From: Bacteroidales bacterium
Lineage (GTDB): Bacteria > Bacteroidota > Bacteroidia > Bacteroidales > Salinivirgaceae
DNA: 48,928 bases
Assembly (NCBI GenBank): GCA_012519055.1
Contig: JAAYQU010000002.1
Span: forward strand, 1 to 48,928
Direction: 5' to 3'
The position numbers and the translations under genes were made by a program. Shown one piece after another: positions 3,967 through 13,327 of this stretch (its first letter is position 1; each line of letters begins with the position of its first letter). Below the pieces are notes generated by a model that was not told the DNA's origin, ran no database searches, and saw only the letters and a program-made list of their open reading frames with translations.

Positions 3967-4530
3967 TCACTTGTTGTTAAAATTGTTCATGGTGTGTTGA
4001 ATGCCCATTAACACAAAGTTTTCTATTGCATTTACGCATATATCAAAACGTGGGGCTATTATTTCATACTCTTCTTGGCTCCACCTGCTTAAAACGTAAT
4101 CGACTTGAAATCCCTTGGGGTAATCGTTTCCAATTCCTAAACGCAGGCGAGGGAAGTTATCTGTTCCGAGTGTCTCGATGATATGTTTCAGACCGTTATG
4201 TCCGGCATCGCTTCCTTTCATGCGTAGGCGGATAGTTCCTAAGGGGAGTGCGATGTCGTCTGTTATGACTAAGATGTTTTCTATTGATATATCTTCTTTT
4301 CGCATCCAGTATCTCACGGCGTTTCCGCTTAGGTTCATGTATGTTGATGGTTTCAACACTGTTACATGTCTTCCCTTTATTTTAAATGTTGATATGTCGC
4401 CGTAACGTGCAGATTGAAACGTAGTTTTGAATTTTAGCGCGAAAGCGTCAGCAACATCAAAACCCACGTTGTGTCGTGTGTTCTGATACTCTTTTCCAAT
4501 ATTTCCCAACCCGATAATTAAGAATTTCAT
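3967..4530 (-). CDS. pth: Peptidyl-tRNA hydrolase
   Basis: Cytoplasmic esterase that recycles peptidyl-tRNA dropped from ribosomes. From the ATG at 4530 the protein is 187 residues, usual for bacterial Pth, and Asn10 and catalytic His20 (in NTRHNVGFD) fall at the same numbers as in the E. coli enzyme; the later motifs KPSTYMNLSG and GSDAGHNGLKHI are also present. An in-frame TTG one codon upstream (4533) would only add a residue, so ATG 4530 is preferred. It is the last gene of the prs-rplY-pth run, and rplY next to pth is a common bacterial pairing. It is separated from rplY by a long hairpin at 4588-4636, so part of its transcription may be attenuated or processed. Confidence 0.96.
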   Translation of the reverse strand: MKFLIIGLGNIGKEYQNTRHNVGFDVADAFALKFKTTFQSARYGDISTFKIKGRHVTVLKPSTYMNLSGNAVRYWMRKEDISIENILVITDDIALPLGTIRLRMKGSDAGHNGLKHIIETLGTDNFPRLRLGIGNDYPKGFQVDYVLSRWSQEEYEIIAPRFDICVNAIENFVLMGIQHTMNNFNNK

Positions 4531-4587
4531 CAACTAACAGTTTGATTGTTAAAAGAGTATTGTTGTTTGTATGTTTTATAAACACAA

Positions 4588-4636
4588 CTCCCGTTTAGTT
4601 ACAAATTGGTCTAACTCAATTTGTTATAAACGGGAG
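4588..4636 (-). terminator. Long hairpin between rplY and pth
   Basis: CTCCCGTTTA (4588-4597) pairs with TAAACGGGAG (4627-4636), and after a small internal loop ACAAATTG (4601-4608) pairs with CAATTTGT (4617-4624): 18 base pairs in all. On the minus strand it is followed by TTGTGTTTATAAAA, a poor but T-rich tail. It may be a partial terminator or RNase site between two genes that are usually cotranscribed. Confidence 0.6.
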
Positions 4637-4668
4637 ACGGTTGTAATATAATTTATAAGTGATTGCTA

Positions 4669-5253
4669 TTATTCTTGTTCTTGTTCTTGTCCCTCAGTTT
4701 CAGCAGTAGTAGTACGACTAGCATAAACTTTTACTATCAGTGTTTGTTTTGGATCAAGGAATGTTAATCCTTCAACTTTAATATCAGAAACTTTTATTCC
4801 GTGTGCAACGTCAAGATTGCTGATGTCGATTTTTATTGTTGGAGGAAGGTCTTTCATTAACCCTTTAACGTAAAGTTTTCTTGTGATATGTCTAAGTTTT
4901 CCACCACGTATTACACCTACTGATGTTCCTGTAAGTTCAACCGGAAGTTTTACTTTGATTGGTTTTTTTTCGTTAACTGCAAGAAAATCAACATGAGTTA
5001 TTTTGTCGGTAACTGGGTGATATTGAACATCTTGAACAATCGCAGTTGTTTTTGTACCTTCAACATCTATATCAAACAAATAAACATGTGGGCTAACAAT
5101 ACCTTTTTCAAAATCGAGGTATTTACCTTTGCAGTGCATGTTTTCGGTTGTACCATAAATTTCGCAAGGAACCATGTCTTGGTTGCGTAATTGTTTTGTA
5201 GAGCCTTTACCTACTTGGCTACGTTTTTGTAATTTAATTTCGTACCTGTTCAT
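4669..5253 (-). CDS. rplY: 50S ribosomal protein L25, general stress protein Ctc form
   Basis: Binds 5S rRNA in the large subunit. At 194 residues it is the long CTC/TL5 form. Residues 1-90 match the L25 domain (start MNRYEIKLQKRSQVGKG, then YHPVTDKITHVDFLAV) and residues 95-180 the TL5 beta domain (VKLPVELTGTSVGVIRGG, then DISNLDVAHGIKVSDI). The tail is acidic and Glu/Gln-rich. It follows prs (130 bp away) but has its own -7 box (5349-5356) and a structured leader, so it can be expressed independently. Confidence 0.95.
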   Translation of the reverse strand: MNRYEIKLQKRSQVGKGSTKQLRNQDMVPCEIYGTTENMHCKGKYLDFEKGIVSPHVYLFDIDVEGTKTTAIVQDVQYHPVTDKITHVDFLAVNEKKPIKVKLPVELTGTSVGVIRGGKLRHITRKLYVKGLMKDLPPTIKIDISNLDVAHGIKVSDIKVEGLTFLDPKQTLIVKVYASRTTTAETEGQEQEQE

Positions 5254-8215: not shown

Positions 8216-8572
8216 TTATGACTGTACTAAATCAATGCTGATTTTTTGATTAGCTTGAACTTCAATCTCTATTTCAATGGGTTGATAGGAGATAAGTTCA
8301 ACTTTAACAGTATGTTTTCCGGGCTTAATATTAGAAATATTGAAATTTCCTTCTAAATCAGAATAATATTTTGTTCCATCAATAAAAATAGCAGCTCCCG
8401 CTAATGATTCGTGACTTTTTTTGTCGGTAATAATACCTGAAAAATTGACTGACTTGACATTATCGACAAATTCAGTAGCGTCAGTTTTTACATTTTTATC
8501 GGTTTTATTATCCTCTGCGTACACAGAAATTGATAAGAATGTAGCCGCTATAATAAAAAGAGTAGTTTTCAT
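8216..8572 (-). CDS. Small secreted CarboxypepD_reg-like domain protein
   Basis: A 118-residue protein with a signal peptide (about residues 1-19, ending VYA) and a low-complexity Asp/Lys/Thr-rich stretch. Residues 43-118 form a single carboxypeptidase-regulatory-like beta-sandwich (SGIITDKKSHESLAGAAIFI, then DLEGNFNISNIKPGKHTVKV). This is the same domain that opens TonB receptors, here on its own with no plug or barrel. A role as a free periplasmic or surface accessory domain is inferred; no enzyme motif is present. It has its own promoter with a five-copy 11-bp phased operator (8622-8671), shared in design with the TonB receptor gene at 13240, so it is probably coregulated with that operon. 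A terminator follows. Confidence 0.85.
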   Translation of the reverse strand: MKTTLFIIAATFLSISVYAEDNKTDKNVKTDATEFVDNVKSVNFSGIITDKKSHESLAGAAIFIDGTKYYSDLEGNFNISNIKPGKHTVKVELISYQPIEIEIEVQANQKISIDLVQS

Positions 8573-8603: not shown

Positions 8604-8671
8604 CAAAAATGCTGTATAAGTATTACAGAATTATTACGTAAAGATTAAGTTTTTGTTAAGAAATTGTTACA
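8604..8671 (-). promoter_or_regulatory. Phased operator and promoter: five GTTACA-like words at 11-bp spacing
   Basis: On the plus strand ATTACA 8622, ATTACG 8633, ATTAAG 8644, GTTAAG 8655 and GTTACA 8666 are each exactly 11 bp apart. On the minus strand the array lies upstream of a degenerate -7 box CATTTTTG (8611-8604), 10 bp away, and the ATG at 8572 is 32 bases beyond that. Direct repeats of 6-7 bp with an 11-bp period next to the promoter are the binding geometry of PhoB/OmpR-type response regulators. The regulator itself is not in this window. Confidence 0.75.
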
Positions 8672-8680
8672 AGAGATGTG

Positions 8681-9157
8681 TCAATATTTTTTTTCGTCTA
8701 CCAGTGTACCTTTTTCATCCCACATGCGCCAAATTCCGGTTTTGTTTCCTTCGTAATAATTCATTTCATATCGTTGCATGCCTAGTTCATCCCAGATGCG
8801 CCAAGTGCCGTGTTTTTGCCCATTTTTGTATTCGGCTTCAGAAATTAATTGTCCCGAAATATCGTAATTCCTCCACAAGCCATGAAGTTTTCCTTCTCTG
8901 TATGAACGTATTTCTTTTGGTTTGCGATTTTCGAAATAAATGATATAAGTTCCTTCTGGCAAACCGTTTTTAATTTGCATTTCAAGTTTAAGAGTGTTGT
9001 TATCATAGTATTCGCGATAATCGCCATTATAGAGTTCGTTTTGTCCTCTATCGTGATAGTAGATACCTTCATTTTGATACAACTGAGGAGTTTTTTGAGC
9101 TTGCACGCTCAACACAATCAAAAATAGCGTTGTGAACAGAGTTATTTTATGCTTCAT
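8681..9157 (-). CDS. Secreted MORN-variant (YwqK-like) repeat protein
   Basis: A 158-residue protein with a signal peptide (residues 1-20, ending VQAQ) followed by four or five repeats of about 20-25 residues with the pattern G-x-x-x-G-x-W/Y-x-x-Y/W-x-x-x-G. Examples are NGLPEGTYIIYFENRKPKE, REGKLHGLWRNYD, KNGQKHGTWRIWDE and EGNKTGIWRMWDE. These are MORN_2 repeats, beta-hairpin units with no known catalytic activity. Such proteins are often labelled as an antitoxin by homology to YwqK, but no toxin gene is adjacent, so that label is not used here. It lies between the beta-helix lipoprotein gene and the small CarboxypepD_reg gene; a terminator hairpin separates it from the former. Function unknown. 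Confidence 0.85.
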   Translation of the reverse strand: MKHKITLFTTLFLIVLSVQAQKTPQLYQNEGIYYHDRGQNELYNGDYREYYDNNTLKLEMQIKNGLPEGTYIIYFENRKPKEIRSYREGKLHGLWRNYDISGQLISEAEYKNGQKHGTWRIWDELGMQRYEMNYYEGNKTGIWRMWDEKGTLVDEKKY

Positions 9158-9245: not shown

Positions 9246-10418
9246 TTAAAGTTGATATCCTGTCCAGCCAAAAAGGTTTGTTGGGCATCCTGTGTTACCG
9301 TCTTCAATTTTAACATTCTCATATGTAGTTCCTTCTTCTTTATTGATATCTTTACCACTGAATGGAGTTGTTAAAGAGTTAGTTAAAGAAATTACAGATG
9401 ATTCTTGTCCGTCACCTTTTTTGTCTTTTAAATCAATTAAATCTTTAACTTGTCCTTGACCTTTTACTAATGCATTTTCGATATTAGCTATAGCTCCTCT
9501 ACGAACTTTAATAACATCGTGCATATAGAATCCCTCTGTAGTGTTAGGCTCTAAGCGAAGGTCGACAGTCATATTTTTGATTGTAAAGTTAGCTTGATTT
9601 GGATATTCAGGATTTAATCCGTCTAAGTTACCGTCAGCTTCTACACCGCGCGGGTCACTTTCGCTACTTACGTATCCAGCTTCCCAAATACCATAAGCAT
9701 TTTCTAATGTACCACAGTAGCCTTGTGTGAAGTCAAACATATCGTCATCAGAATTTACAACCAACAAGTTTTTCACGTTTACACAACCTCCGAAGAATTC
9801 GATACCGTCATCAGCTCCGTTAGGAATGTAGATGTTTTCAATTGTTGTTCCAGCACCTACACCGTTTAATGTAAGTCCATTATGCTCAACGTTTGCGCTT
9901 GAACGAGCTCCTGTGTATTCGAGTTTTAAATAGGTAATAGTACCCGAATTGTCGTTAGGATCGTTGCCACCGTAAACATAAGCAGAGTTAATTTCTGTGC
10001 TACCTACTTCGCTTGGATCGGCTAATGGAGCTTTACCATTGATAATTAATCCACCCCAGTGACCTTGTTCTGCATTAGCAATGTCGGCAGTCATAGTAAC
10101 TGGTTTTTCAGCTGTACCATTAACATTAATTTTACCACCTTGTAAAACTAAAATGTAGCTTCCAAATCCTTTTCTCGCTTTAATTGTAGTTCCAGCAGGA
10201 ATAGTCAATACTCCACCATCTTCAACAATAAGCGGACCTGTTAACGTGTAATTAATAGCAGCATCGAGCGTTCTGCTACTGTTTATAGCACCCGATAAGT
10301 TCTCGTCAGTAACTGTAGGAGGAGTTACAGGATCTTTTTTGTCTTTGTCATCTTTACATGCAGCAAAAATAACTGCAGCACTCATAATTAAATAAAGCAA
10401 ATTTTTTTTCATTGTCAT
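9246..10418 (-). CDS. Surface lipoprotein with right-handed beta-helix fold
   Basis: A 390-residue lipoprotein: the signal peptide ends in a lipobox (FAAC, Cys21). CKDDKDKKD right after it resembles the Bacteroidetes signal for export of lipoproteins to the outer face of the outer membrane. The rest is rich in short strands and turns (GGVLTIPAGTTIKARKGFG, GHWGGLIINGKAPL, DGIEFFGGCVNVKNLLVVNSDDD), typical of parallel beta-helix proteins. Two Cys pairs and many Asp/Asn turns suggest a stable, possibly Ca-binding solenoid. It is 125 bp downstream of the TonB receptor and precedes a terminator, so it is most likely the surface ligand-binding partner of that receptor, in the place SusD takes in Sus systems. 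No SusD is present. Some database relatives carry a misleading multidrug-transporter name; nothing here supports transport by this protein itself. MKKN at 10412 is an alternative start. Confidence 0.8.
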   Translation of the reverse strand: MTMKKNLLYLIMSAAVIFAACKDDKDKKDPVTPPTVTDENLSGAINSSRTLDAAINYTLTGPLIVEDGGVLTIPAGTTIKARKGFGSYILVLQGGKINVNGTAEKPVTMTADIANAEQGHWGGLIINGKAPLADPSEVGSTEINSAYVYGGNDPNDNSGTITYLKLEYTGARSSANVEHNGLTLNGVGAGTTIENIYIPNGADDGIEFFGGCVNVKNLLVVNSDDDMFDFTQGYCGTLENAYGIWEAGYVSSESDPRGVEADGNLDGLNPEYPNQANFTIKNMTVDLRLEPNTTEGFYMHDVIKVRRGAIANIENALVKGQGQVKDLIDLKDKKGDGQESSVISLTNSLTTPFSGKDINKEEGTTYENVKIEDGNTGCPTNLFGWTGYQL

Positions 10419-10543: not shown

Positions 10544-13240
10544 TTAAAATTGATAGCTTATTCCTAAGCCAAAGTTTTGCCCTTTTTTAAATTCACTCAA
10601 CACTATTTTTTCGCCTGTTGTTCCCTCACGTGATAGACGGTAAGGCGCGTCAAGTATATTTATAGCTTTAAAGTTTACCGAGAAGTTTTTGTTAAATCCG
10701 TATGATAAAACTAAATCTAACGTGGGAACTCCTTCTTCAATAATATCTCTAAATCCTTTTGTGCCAACGGTATGAACTCTATCACTGAAATAGTTAAATA
10801 TTATTGATGCGATAAAATCTTTTTCACTTTTCTTGAAACTGTATGATAAATCGGCATTCATCAAGAATGGTGATGCTCCTTCCAATTGTGTTTTACGCGG
10901 TGTTGTGCTGGGTACATCGAGCATTAAATTAGTATAGATATAAGAAGCATTCACACCGAAAGAGAGACGGTTAGATTGCTCTAATAGAGTATTAAACTTA
11001 TTGAAAATGTTTTTGCGAAGTTCTATTTCAATTCCCCCAACTGTGGCATTCTCGCCTATATTATCATATGTAAGAAGTCCTGCAGAGTTTCCTTGATCTA
11101 CGCGTCCGATAGGATTTTGTATTTGTTTGTAAAAGGTTGTAATTGAGAATAGTTCACTGTTGGTTATGTAGAAATCCCATTTTAAATCTACGTTATAGTT
11201 GTCTGATGGCTTGATGTTAGTATTACCTTGACTTGCAAAAGATATATTTACGTATTGATAGGGAGAAATCTCTTTTGATTGAGGCAAAGTATATGTTTTG
11301 CTAACGCCTAACCTCAAGCTGTTTTTATCGTTTATATCGTATTTCAGGTTTAAACTTGGTAAGAAGTAGTTTTTATTTATTGTTTCGCTACCTGGTACGA
11401 CATGAGTTACTTCATGGTCAACAGTTAAGTCGACTGCATCCATTCGCAATCCAATGTTTCCTGCCAAGCTTGCAGCTATTTGATACGATACTTCTGCAAA
11501 ACCTGAGTGTATGTTTTTAAACACTTTGTAGGAGTTTGTCTCACCCTTCTCCATTTTTAGTAAGCCACTGCTTAGGTACTCTTCGTAAAACTCATCTAAA
11601 TTCAGGTCTTCAATTGTGAAATTTGGTGTACCCAAAGGACTATAGTTATACTCTACCGCTTTGAATTTGTCGTTTGTAAATCTTCCAGCGTATCCTACTT
11701 GTACTGAGGAGTTTCCACTATTAAATCTGTCGTTCAGTTTTATCGACAGTCCAACCTTAGCGTTAAGATCGTTATTTTTCAGATCAGAGAAGAATCGTTT
11801 ATTTCGGTTGCTTCGGGTTAAACTGTACAGATTTTCATCTACTTGTGTAAAATAGTTCTCGCGACGGTCAGGCTCTAATCCCTTTACCGTATTGTACGCT
11901 ACACCCAAATTTAACTTTATGATGTCAGTTAGTTGCCAATCTGAAACTAATTGATTTACAAGCAGAAGATTGTCGTTTGTTTGTTGTCTTCTGATTATGC
12001 CAGACTCTGTGGGACTACCCTGAAAAGGTTCGTGATAAAAACCGCTAAACTCTCCTACATACTGGTCGTTAACGTGGATAAGCATAAAGTTGTAATTAAC
12101 GTTATGTCGGTTTTTAATTTCATAATGGGCATTAGCCAAAGCAAGTTGGTTGACTGCCTGTGAATATTTGTCTCCCTCTTGGTCTTGAAACTTCGCTCCA
12201 ATTGAGTTTGTTTTCCGTGCAATTTCTTTGGTACACGAATTACTTATTCCGTGAGAGGCTACTACGAAGATTGACAACTTGTTGCTGTTTCCTTCTTTGC
12301 TAAATAGCTTTCCTCCCGATACTCCGAAGCCGTGATTGAGCGGGAACGACACTTTTTGGGGAACTAAACTGTTTGGAAAATTGTGCTGACCTTGAGATGG
12401 TTGATCTGTGTTAGCAAATCCCAAATAGTTGGAACCGTCTTGGCGGACAAAATCTGCACCTACTGCCGCCACATTGACACCTGCCGATAAATCAACAGAT
12501 AGCTTGCTCTCCTCAGCTAACTCTTTTGAGGAGATGTCAACAACTGCACCGCCCACATCGCCCACGTTAGATGCATTAAAAACCTTGTTTACTCCAATGT
12601 TTTGAATGACATCAGTTCCAAAAAACTCTAATGCAATGTTTTTATATTCAGGGTCTTCTGAAGGAATAGGGAAGCCATTAAGTAGTGTTGCGTTGTATCT
12701 GTCACCCAATCCGCGTACAAAAACGTTTTTAACACCCTCTTGTTTTGATATTCCAGAGACTTGTGCAACAGCGGCTTGTGCATCGGATATCCCCTTTCTG
12801 GAAAGTTCTCTTGCTCCAACAGTTTGAGTAACTAATAAAGCTTTCTTTTGTTCAAGCAACAAGATGTTTTCACTCTCCCGGTTAGCTTTCGCAACAACTT
12901 GTACTTCTTTAAGACTTATATCATCAGGTTCCAACAGAAAATCTACGATAGTTTCTTTATTTTTTTCAACAACAACTCCTTTTTTGATTGTCGACTGGTA
13001 TGTTATGTAGGAGACAACAAGAGTATAAGTTCCTGGTGCAACATTTTGAATAATGTAGTCCCCATTTAAATCGGCAGCAGCTCCGGTAGTAGTACCTTGT
13101 ATAATTACCGCAGCACCTATGAGTGATTCTTTGGTTTTTGAATCTAAAACACTCCCTTTTATACTCCCTGTTTGTGCTAAAATTTCTGTCGCGGTGACAA
13201 GAAAAAACAGGGTAATAAGAAATAACTTTTTATGCGTCAC
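10544..13240 (-). CDS. TonB-dependent outer-membrane receptor
   Basis: An 898-residue receptor that uses TonB energy to import a substrate across the outer membrane. Signal peptide 1-22 (ending ILAQ), CarboxypepD_reg-like domain 25-110, and a TonB plug about 125-245 with VFVRGLGDRYNATLLNGFPI and GGAVVDISSKE. The remainder is a beta-barrel ending in the aromatic FGLGISYQF. It starts at GTG (13240); no ATG lies before the signal peptide. The next gene encodes a beta-helix surface lipoprotein, so the two form a receptor/lipoprotein pair without SusD. Expression is probably controlled by the phased operator at 13288-13327, and the -7 box is degenerate, as expected for an activator-dependent promoter. 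The substrate is unknown; phosphate-containing compounds are a possibility if the operator is a Pho box. Confidence 0.92.
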   Translation of the reverse strand: MTHKKLFLITLFFLVTATEILAQTGSIKGSVLDSKTKESLIGAAVIIQGTTTGAAADLNGDYIIQNVAPGTYTLVVSYITYQSTIKKGVVVEKNKETIVDFLLEPDDISLKEVQVVAKANRESENILLLEQKKALLVTQTVGARELSRKGISDAQAAVAQVSGISKQEGVKNVFVRGLGDRYNATLLNGFPIPSEDPEYKNIALEFFGTDVIQNIGVNKVFNASNVGDVGGAVVDISSKELAEESKLSVDLSAGVNVAAVGADFVRQDGSNYLGFANTDQPSQGQHNFPNSLVPQKVSFPLNHGFGVSGGKLFSKEGNSNKLSIFVVASHGISNSCTKEIARKTNSIGAKFQDQEGDKYSQAVNQLALANAHYEIKNRHNVNYNFMLIHVNDQYVGEFSGFYHEPFQGSPTESGIIRRQQTNDNLLLVNQLVSDWQLTDIIKLNLGVAYNTVKGLEPDRRENYFTQVDENLYSLTRSNRNKRFFSDLKNNDLNAKVGLSIKLNDRFNSGNSSVQVGYAGRFTNDKFKAVEYNYSPLGTPNFTIEDLNLDEFYEEYLSSGLLKMEKGETNSYKVFKNIHSGFAEVSYQIAASLAGNIGLRMDAVDLTVDHEVTHVVPGSETINKNYFLPSLNLKYDINDKNSLRLGVSKTYTLPQSKEISPYQYVNISFASQGNTNIKPSDNYNVDLKWDFYITNSELFSITTFYKQIQNPIGRVDQGNSAGLLTYDNIGENATVGGIEIELRKNIFNKFNTLLEQSNRLSFGVNASYIYTNLMLDVPSTTPRKTQLEGASPFLMNADLSYSFKKSEKDFIASIIFNYFSDRVHTVGTKGFRDIIEEGVPTLDLVLSYGFNKNFSVNFKAINILDAPYRLSREGTTGEKIVLSEFKKGQNFGLGISYQF

Positions 13241-13270: not shown

Positions 13271-13327
13271 CAAAGTTGAAGTTTGATTGTTACAAAGCTG
13301 TTACATGAACGTTACGTTTTTGTTAGC
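13271..13327 (-). promoter_or_regulatory. Phased operator and promoter: four GTTACA-like words at 11-bp spacing
   Basis: On the plus strand TGTTACA 13288, TGTTACA 13299, CGTTACG 13310 and TGTTAGC 13321 lie exactly 11 bp apart with 4-bp spacers. On the minus strand they lie about 10 bp upstream of CAACTTTG (13278-13271), a -7 box with one mismatch to TAnnTTTG. The array therefore covers the -33 region. The start codon follows at 13240. This matches the arrangement at 8604-8671 and the 7+4 design of PhoB boxes. Confidence 0.8.

Follow-up and report, generated by a model that had tools for sequence, protein, structure and literature searches.

A candidate PhoB operator with 11-bp phasing at the promoter of a TonB receptor/surface lipoprotein operon in Bacteroidales

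RESULTS

A receptor-lipoprotein gene pair and two repeat arrays

The window, by which we mean the whole stretch of 48,928 nucleotides of Bacteroidales DNA analyzed here, holds an array of short direct repeats. The array is flanked by two minus-strand genes, one for a K+/H+ antiporter and one for a TonB receptor, and the receptor gene is followed by genes for a putative surface lipoprotein, a MORN-repeat protein and a small protein of 118 amino acids (Table 1). The receptor consists of a TonB barrel, a plug and an N-terminal CarboxypepD_reg domain. Of the ten window proteins scanned, a set that takes in the products of the gene ahead of the receptor and of the three behind it, none gave a SusD match, and a SusCD/PusCD system was set aside for want of SusD among these ten.

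Table 1. Features of the window with their positions and the basis of each assignment
Feature	Position	Strand	Description and basis
Candidate Pho-box array, receptor promoter	13288..13327	-	Four 7-bp units, 11-bp period; sequence, chance test, genome scans
-7-like promoter box CAACTTTG	13271..13278	-	Sequence and register in orthologous promoters
TonB-dependent receptor	10544..13240	-	898 aa, GTG start; Pfam/NCBIfam
Predicted beta-helix lipoprotein, ElpS/FI-FII-like	9246..10418	-	390 aa; N-terminus, AlphaFold model, relatives, fold search
MORN-repeat protein	8681..9157	-	158 aa; domain scan, neighbourhoods
Second candidate Pho-box array	8621..8671	-	Five 7-bp units, 11-bp period; sequence, chance test, genome scan
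-7-like box CATTTTTG	8604..8611	-	Sequence and genome scan; 9-bp gap to the second array
118-aa protein	8216..8572	-	Signal-like N-terminus, CarboxypepD_reg_2 domain

The N-terminus of the lipoprotein (...FAACKDDKDKKD) has the appearance of a lipobox followed by an acidic stretch, which we take to be an export signal. Pfam and NCBIfam gave no family for the protein, the PDB gave no sequence match at E <= 1, and a Foldseek search with its model returned low TM-scores and one match at E <= 0.001. The AlphaFold model is confident (pLDDT 90.8), with VIA-align Z values of 19.4-22.4 among the 50 matches listed, which from their titles are presumably beta-helix proteins, and in this model the lipoprotein is a parallel beta-helix. 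In an alignment of 26 sequences, one of them the window protein, many residues in the acidic stretches DDGIEFFGG, SDDDMFDFTQGY and EADGNLDG of the lipoprotein do not vary. An earlier note, made from the DNA letters of this stretch, had described a receptor that lacks SusD and is paired with a beta-helix surface lipoprotein, and the domain scan of the ten proteins together with the AlphaFold and VIA-align results bore out the receptor without SusD and the beta-helix partner, whose N-terminus is lipobox-like.

Relatives of the lipoprotein were found in 50 of the 80 whole genomes searched, the own genome included, and from stretches of named genomes we kept the best 80 of 129 relatives, which are 82% to 51% identical and lie at 79 loci. 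A receptor start was found upstream of the lipoprotein gene at 75 of these loci; at the remaining four (L125, L130, L133 and L134), which stay out of the promoter set, the contig begins inside or after the receptor. A MORN homologue is present at 28 of the 79 loci, downstream of the lipoprotein gene in 27, and the upstream DNA of the MORN gene, scored in 27 loci as described below, carried no array above background in 22, so the MORN gene is probably part of the receptor-lipoprotein operon. One receptor-lipoprotein pair (L033, NZ_OY725943.1) comes from a 34.8-kb record that was submitted as a plasmid of Bacteroides finegoldii; its lipoprotein gene is absent from the PLSDB table, which is incomplete by its own account.

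Four phased units stand 9 bp from a -7-like box

On the plus strand, the units TGTTACA, TGTTACA, CGTTACG and TGTTAGC start at 13288, 13299, 13310 and 13321; on the gene strand they read GCTAACA, CGTAACG, TGTAACA and TGTAACA. The four words, their exact 11-bp steps and the 4-bp spacers are as the earlier note had them. It had also placed a degenerate -7 box on the minus strand about 10 bp from the last word; the -7-like box is there, and CAACTTTG is separated from the closest 7-mer by exactly 9 bp (13279-13287). The -7 box of Bacteroidota has the consensus TAnnTTTG, from which CAACTTTG differs by one base, and the GTG start of the receptor gene follows about 30 bp beyond it. Two properties of a Pho box are present at this promoter, namely tandem 7-bp direct repeats with 4-bp spacers, whose period of 11 is conserved in orthologues, and a fixed placement directly upstream of the -7 element and over the -33 element (9 bp, by the register test below).

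The window contains a single mismatch-free instance of four GTTA words spaced 11 bp apart. With <=3 mismatches the same pattern gives 6 matches versus a shuffle mean of 1.22, and 0 of 100 shuffles reached 6; five of the six matches belong to the receptor-promoter array and to the array near 8622.

The strictest genome matches precede phoB and pstS

The own genome (2.7 Mb in 53 contigs) was scanned with a pattern of three repeats, (GTTAC N6)x3, which at 0-1 mismatches returned 6 rows corresponding to four sites: the receptor promoter, phoB, pstS and a TonB receptor/DUF4249 operon (C31). At all four, the repeats share one orientation relative to the gene. The same site is therefore found ahead of phoB and of pst genes within the own genome, which is a third property of a Pho box, and two of the four best matches of this strictest pattern fall before phosphate genes, where the earlier note had proposed to look for them. 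PhoB passes the cut-off of the Bacteroidetes PhoB family NF053854 (314 versus 270 bits), and pstS, pstC, pstA and pstB pass those of TIGR00975, TIGR02138, TIGR00974 and TIGR00972, respectively; the phoR model NF053855 gave a strong match under its cut-off (424 versus 500 bits), and PhoU was found with Pfam PF01895.

The own phoB array lies about 290 bp ahead of the start codon and has no exact TTTG in register (TTGT), as is also the case for the C31 array (TTCG). At C31, the strong array lies about 190-240 bp upstream of a TonB receptor gene (L035 5291-7741, minus strand) that is followed by a DUF4249 gene (4178-5107, minus strand), and on this arrangement the pair is a candidate for a second phosphate-starvation surface system. 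The pstS array is situated between pstS and a gene before it (L034 14167-15156, minus strand) for a 329-aa protein that by eye resembles a phosphate-selective porin and has no Pfam match. A Cas9-like frame is also seen near the pst cluster (L034 17259-19001, plus strand; Pfam PF18470, 29.2 versus a cut-off of 26.9 bits).

Looser patterns were less selective. With the word TGTTA, 0-1 mismatches gave 11 rows at ten sites, four of them the sites of the strict pattern and six without a phosphate theme: C45:113732 (a 197-aa membrane protein, no TTTG in register), C1:117087, C13:40942, C15:4001, C31:76156 and C47:27870. These six were set aside along with C17:11461, C30:1655, C45:80763, C45:195655 (TTTG off by one) and C47:63412, some of which overlap open frames and others of which have no clear target. 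At 3 mismatches, neither the TGTTA pattern (207+199 versus 238+252 in the control) nor (GTTAC N6)x3 (43+36 versus 47+49 in the reversed control, that is, 79 versus 96) was in excess over the whole genome, so only the best few genome sites are believable. Another loose pattern (67+106 versus 80+83 in the control) and the pattern with the -7 TTTG added at 2 mismatches (22+23 versus 21+23) were likewise not enriched genome-wide. When TTTG was added at its fixed distance, the receptor promoter was the only exact match in the genome; one mismatch brought in another register of the receptor promoter, pstS, C31, C45:195655 and C47:63411, and two mismatches brought in the second array and phoB, among others.

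Period and register are conserved in orthologous receptor promoters

Orthologous promoters were scored with a matrix built only from the phoB, pstS and C31 arrays; the receptor promoter was excluded from it, yet those sites had been found by likeness to it. No usable receptor start was available at 10 of the 79 loci, which leaves 69 promoters, or 75 with the six that were rescued via a tblastn start. The 11-bp spacing, which the earlier note had proposed to check in such promoters, proved to be conserved, as the best three-unit score of the 69 promoters had a mean of 13.7 at period 11 versus 1.7-4.3 at the others (13.66 versus 4.26, 3.03, 2.74, 1.68, 2.66, 3.15 and 1.77 at periods 8, 9, 10, 12, 13, 14 and 15). 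The 225 other promoters of the same loci had a mean of 0.97, and the AUC of the 69 receptor promoters against them was 0.96. Scores exceeded the 95th percentile of this background (8.9) in 54 of the 69 promoters and the 99th in 35. Several of the top background matches lie at phoB, at MORN genes or where a 118-aa homologue starts, so the background holds some true members and the comparison is conservative. At Bacteroides, Phocaeicola and Prevotella loci, the unit beside the -7 box is mostly kept and the middle units are often degenerate.

The array is also held in a fixed register to the -7 box. In 39 of the 69 promoters, the last clear unit and the TTTG downstream of it start exactly 20 bp apart, and 65 of the 91 TTTG words in the following 70 bp share one phase of the 11-bp period. 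When the array was slid against TTTG, the mean score was 10.2 at the observed register and -12 to -19 at all ten other shifts (10.2 and -12 to -21 with slightly different limits). The observed register was the best of the eleven in 59 of the 69 promoters (65 of 75 with the six rescued ones) and in 26 of 205 background promoters, with 1 in 11 expected; this background comprised 224 promoters, 19 of which were skipped because no TTTG lay far enough in, as were 1 of the 18 pst promoters and 2 of the 22 promoters of 118-aa homologues described below. The consensus of 47 TTTG-anchored promoters with a score >5 reads ctTAAc, cgTAAc, GTAAC and tGTAACA, then 9 bp, then gAccTTTGc.

Conservation of both period and register across many genera, together with the window shuffles, makes it extremely unlikely that the array is a chance repeat in AT-rich DNA, even though loose matches show no overall excess in the genome. 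The same register bears on the direction of control. Pho response regulators are said to activate or repress in the available text of PMC4415409, and a PhoB site could in principle repress here or serve another promoter instead of activating this operon, but a site that covers -33 and keeps a constant 9 bp from the -7 box, as in most orthologues, is arranged like that of an activator, and the related genes of Flavobacterium johnsoniae go up in low phosphate according to the accessible part of PMC8115612, so we regard this as very improbable and favor activation of the receptor-lipoprotein operon.

Pst promoters of other genomes carry the array

A PstS search in 60 genomes of the order gave a match at E <= 1e-30 in just 5, the own genome included. 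We sought pstC in the 26 genomes that hold the named loci; 20 gave a match, 19 of them above the family cut-off, and one (L264) has no upstream DNA, which leaves 18. In the 250 bp ahead of the first gene of the pst cluster, the best site exceeded the background 95th percentile (8.9) in 15 of the 18 and the 99th in 13. The three under the 95th percentile are L259 (4.3), L271 (8.5, just below) and L277 (4.1); no convincing array is seen at L259 or L277. For L270, the start of the first gene was set about 110 bp late in the scoring, with the array still inside the scored stretch. The TTTG register was best in 12 of 17 pst promoters. With arrays at 15 of 18 pst promoters, most of these genomes appear to use one operator for the pst cluster and the receptor-lipoprotein operon.

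A PhoB-like gene lies within the fetched DNA at 12 of the 79 loci (L120, L124, L118 and others); all 10 of the PhoB-like genes scanned against NF053854, ten of the twelve, pass its cut-off, and the other two were checked by Pfam only. A relative of the L150 permease, a PHO4-family phosphate transporter (Pfam PF01384), is present at 13 of the 79 loci.

These phosphate genes weigh on the choice of regulator. Another member of the OmpR/PhoB family could use the same 11-bp tandem geometry in response to a different signal: tandem 7+4 repeats are also described for Mycobacterium tuberculosis PhoP in the literature available, and the own PhoB matches many other OmpR-family models, below their cut-offs. 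However, the best other sites of the own genome are those of phoB, pstS and one TonB receptor, and pst promoters elsewhere carry the array, which makes a regulator other than PhoB improbable.

A second array precedes a free-standing receptor-like domain

The second array that the earlier note had placed near 8622-8671 is real; it comprises five 7-mers at 8621-8671, 9 bp from CATTTTTG, and precedes the 118-aa gene. By tblastn matches, the 118-aa protein resembles the N-terminal domain of the window TonB receptor. Homologues were accepted at E <= 1e-10 with the start covered and a location after the receptor, and 22 pass in the 79 loci; weaker, partial or elsewhere-placed matches at L124, L144, L155 and L169 were left out. 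The array score before the homologue exceeds the background 95th percentile in 19 of the 22; in the remaining three it is 8.3, 8.1 and 3.9, and their units can be made out by eye. The TTTG register was best in 10 of 20 of these promoters. A free-standing protein that resembles the N-terminal CarboxypepD_reg domain of the receptor thus has its own candidate Pho box, which makes the 118-aa domain protein a candidate new member of the Pho-regulated set.

DISCUSSION

What the computation shows is the array at the receptor promoter, how it is conserved, the register it keeps to the -7 box and that phoB and pst promoters share it. On this basis, we infer PhoB as the regulator from DNA sequence, and the array is very probably a PhoB operator that would activate the receptor/ElpS-type lipoprotein operon under phosphate limitation. 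The Pho-box reading offered in the earlier note is supported both by the genome matches at phoB and pstS and by the conserved spacing.

According to this model, phosphate limitation would lead PhoR to phosphorylate PhoB, which would then bind the 11-bp repeats head to tail, with successive molecules one helical turn apart on the same face of the DNA; the available text of PMC4415409 describes such tandem head-to-tail binding for the PhoB family, each 11 bp taking up one protein. With 9 bp between the -7 box and the nearest unit, PhoB bound to that unit would stand in for the -33 element, contact the primary sigma factor from its position over -33 and recruit RNA polymerase, and E. coli PhoB sites overlap the -35 as described in the accessible part of PMC3348028. 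The genes switched on would be those of the TonB receptor, the ElpS-type surface beta-helix lipoprotein and probably the MORN protein, and a second copy of the switch would drive the small 118-aa domain protein. We further infer a phosphate response and, as our best guess at a substrate, that phosphorus compounds are most likely bound at the cell surface and taken up by the products of the operon, where the beta-helix lipoprotein may help to capture or release them.

Beyond this operon, we lean slightly toward a wider proposal, in which Bacteroidota would have a phylum-wide Pho box of their own, (T/C)GTAACA N4 in three to five copies, locked at 9 bp to a weak -7 box, often of the form GAccTTTG, and dispensing with a separate -33 element. 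The ElpS-type operon would then be a core member of the Pho regulon, and the same box would also control the free-standing receptor N-terminal domain, a protein that may adjust the traffic of TonB receptors during phosphate starvation. PhoB control in Bacteroides and phosphate-induced surface systems in Flavobacterium are already known. Given an operator that is defined and stands at a fixed distance from the -7 box, the phosphate-starvation genes of gut, soil and marine Bacteroidota could be listed from sequence. The finding also connects PhoB with the ElpS-type lipoprotein, for which the literature available gives no settled biochemical role.

Comparison with known Pho boxes

The window array shares with the Pho boxes of E. 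coli, Bacillus and Streptomyces the 7-bp direct repeats, the 4-bp spacers and the 11-bp period, the overlap with the upstream promoter element and the presence before phoB and pst. The window-type array differs in having about three to five units placed 9 bp from a Bacteroidota -7 box (xAnnTTTG), whereas other Pho boxes stand before a sigma-70 -10 box. The Pho word of Bacillus, TTAACA, is close to the window word. On the gene strand, the window word is (T/C)GTAACA versus CTGTCAT in E. coli, as given in the available text of PMC4415409.

Within Bacteroidota, PhoB of Bacteroides fragilis binds the pst promoter by EMSA (PMC3547664), and the accessible part of that report gives no operator sequence, the word "consensus" being absent from its main text. 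For marine bacteria, in a set of strains that includes flavobacteria, Pho boxes were predicted in plcP clusters by PMC4796936, whose available text carries no sequence; an earlier Pho-box prediction within Bacteroidota may therefore stand in its tables. In Riemerella anatipestifer, DAP-seq of PhoP found TTTAACA most conserved, which is compatible with the window word, and the authors compare it to ArcA in the available text of PMC9603813. The term "pho box" is absent from the main text of PMC8115612. We found no sequence definition of a Pho box for Bacteroidota in the literature, within a partial coverage of subscription papers and regulon databases.

Comparison with known surface systems

The earlier note had suggested an uptake system of unrecognised type. 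This part of its reading does not hold, as the operon resembles ElpS/CC0171 of Caulobacter (PMC2996285) and the FI/FII pairs of F. johnsoniae (PMC8115612). Two features of that group are present in the window lipoprotein, whose gene adjoins a TonB receptor gene and whose model has the parallel beta-helix fold.

As described in the accessible part of PMC2996285, ElpS of Caulobacter crescentus is made under phosphate starvation, and the surface lipoprotein gene adjoins a TonB receptor gene, as in the window. The order is receptor then lipoprotein in the window, which differs from ElpS/CC0171. In Sphingomonas parapaucimobilis the homologue of the window lipoprotein, a hypothetical protein, is followed by a TonB receptor and type II secretion genes, which matches the elpS/CC0171 order given for Caulobacter and relatives in PMC2996285. 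The Caulobacter receptor CC0171 is reported there as constitutive, unlike elpS. An Alteromonas macleodii plasmid carries, in order, phoB, phoR, a phosphate-binding protein, an oxygenase, a homologue of the lipoprotein and a TonB receptor.

In F. johnsoniae, FI and FII rise strongly in low phosphate together with their TonB transporters (Fjoh_3856/3857, Fjoh_0546/0545), and FII belongs to the phoBR cluster, according to the available text of PMC8115612. According to the same text, FI-FIII form a related group to which the Caulobacter lipoprotein also belongs, and their models are polygalacturonase-like. FI, FII and FIII with their TonB transporters (PUSIII, PUSIV; PMC8115612) pair a polygalacturonase-like lipoprotein with a TonB transporter, as the window operon appears to do. 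Judged by gene order, fold and published descriptions, the window operon therefore resembles a surface phosphorus-scavenging operon of a kind already known in other bacteria.
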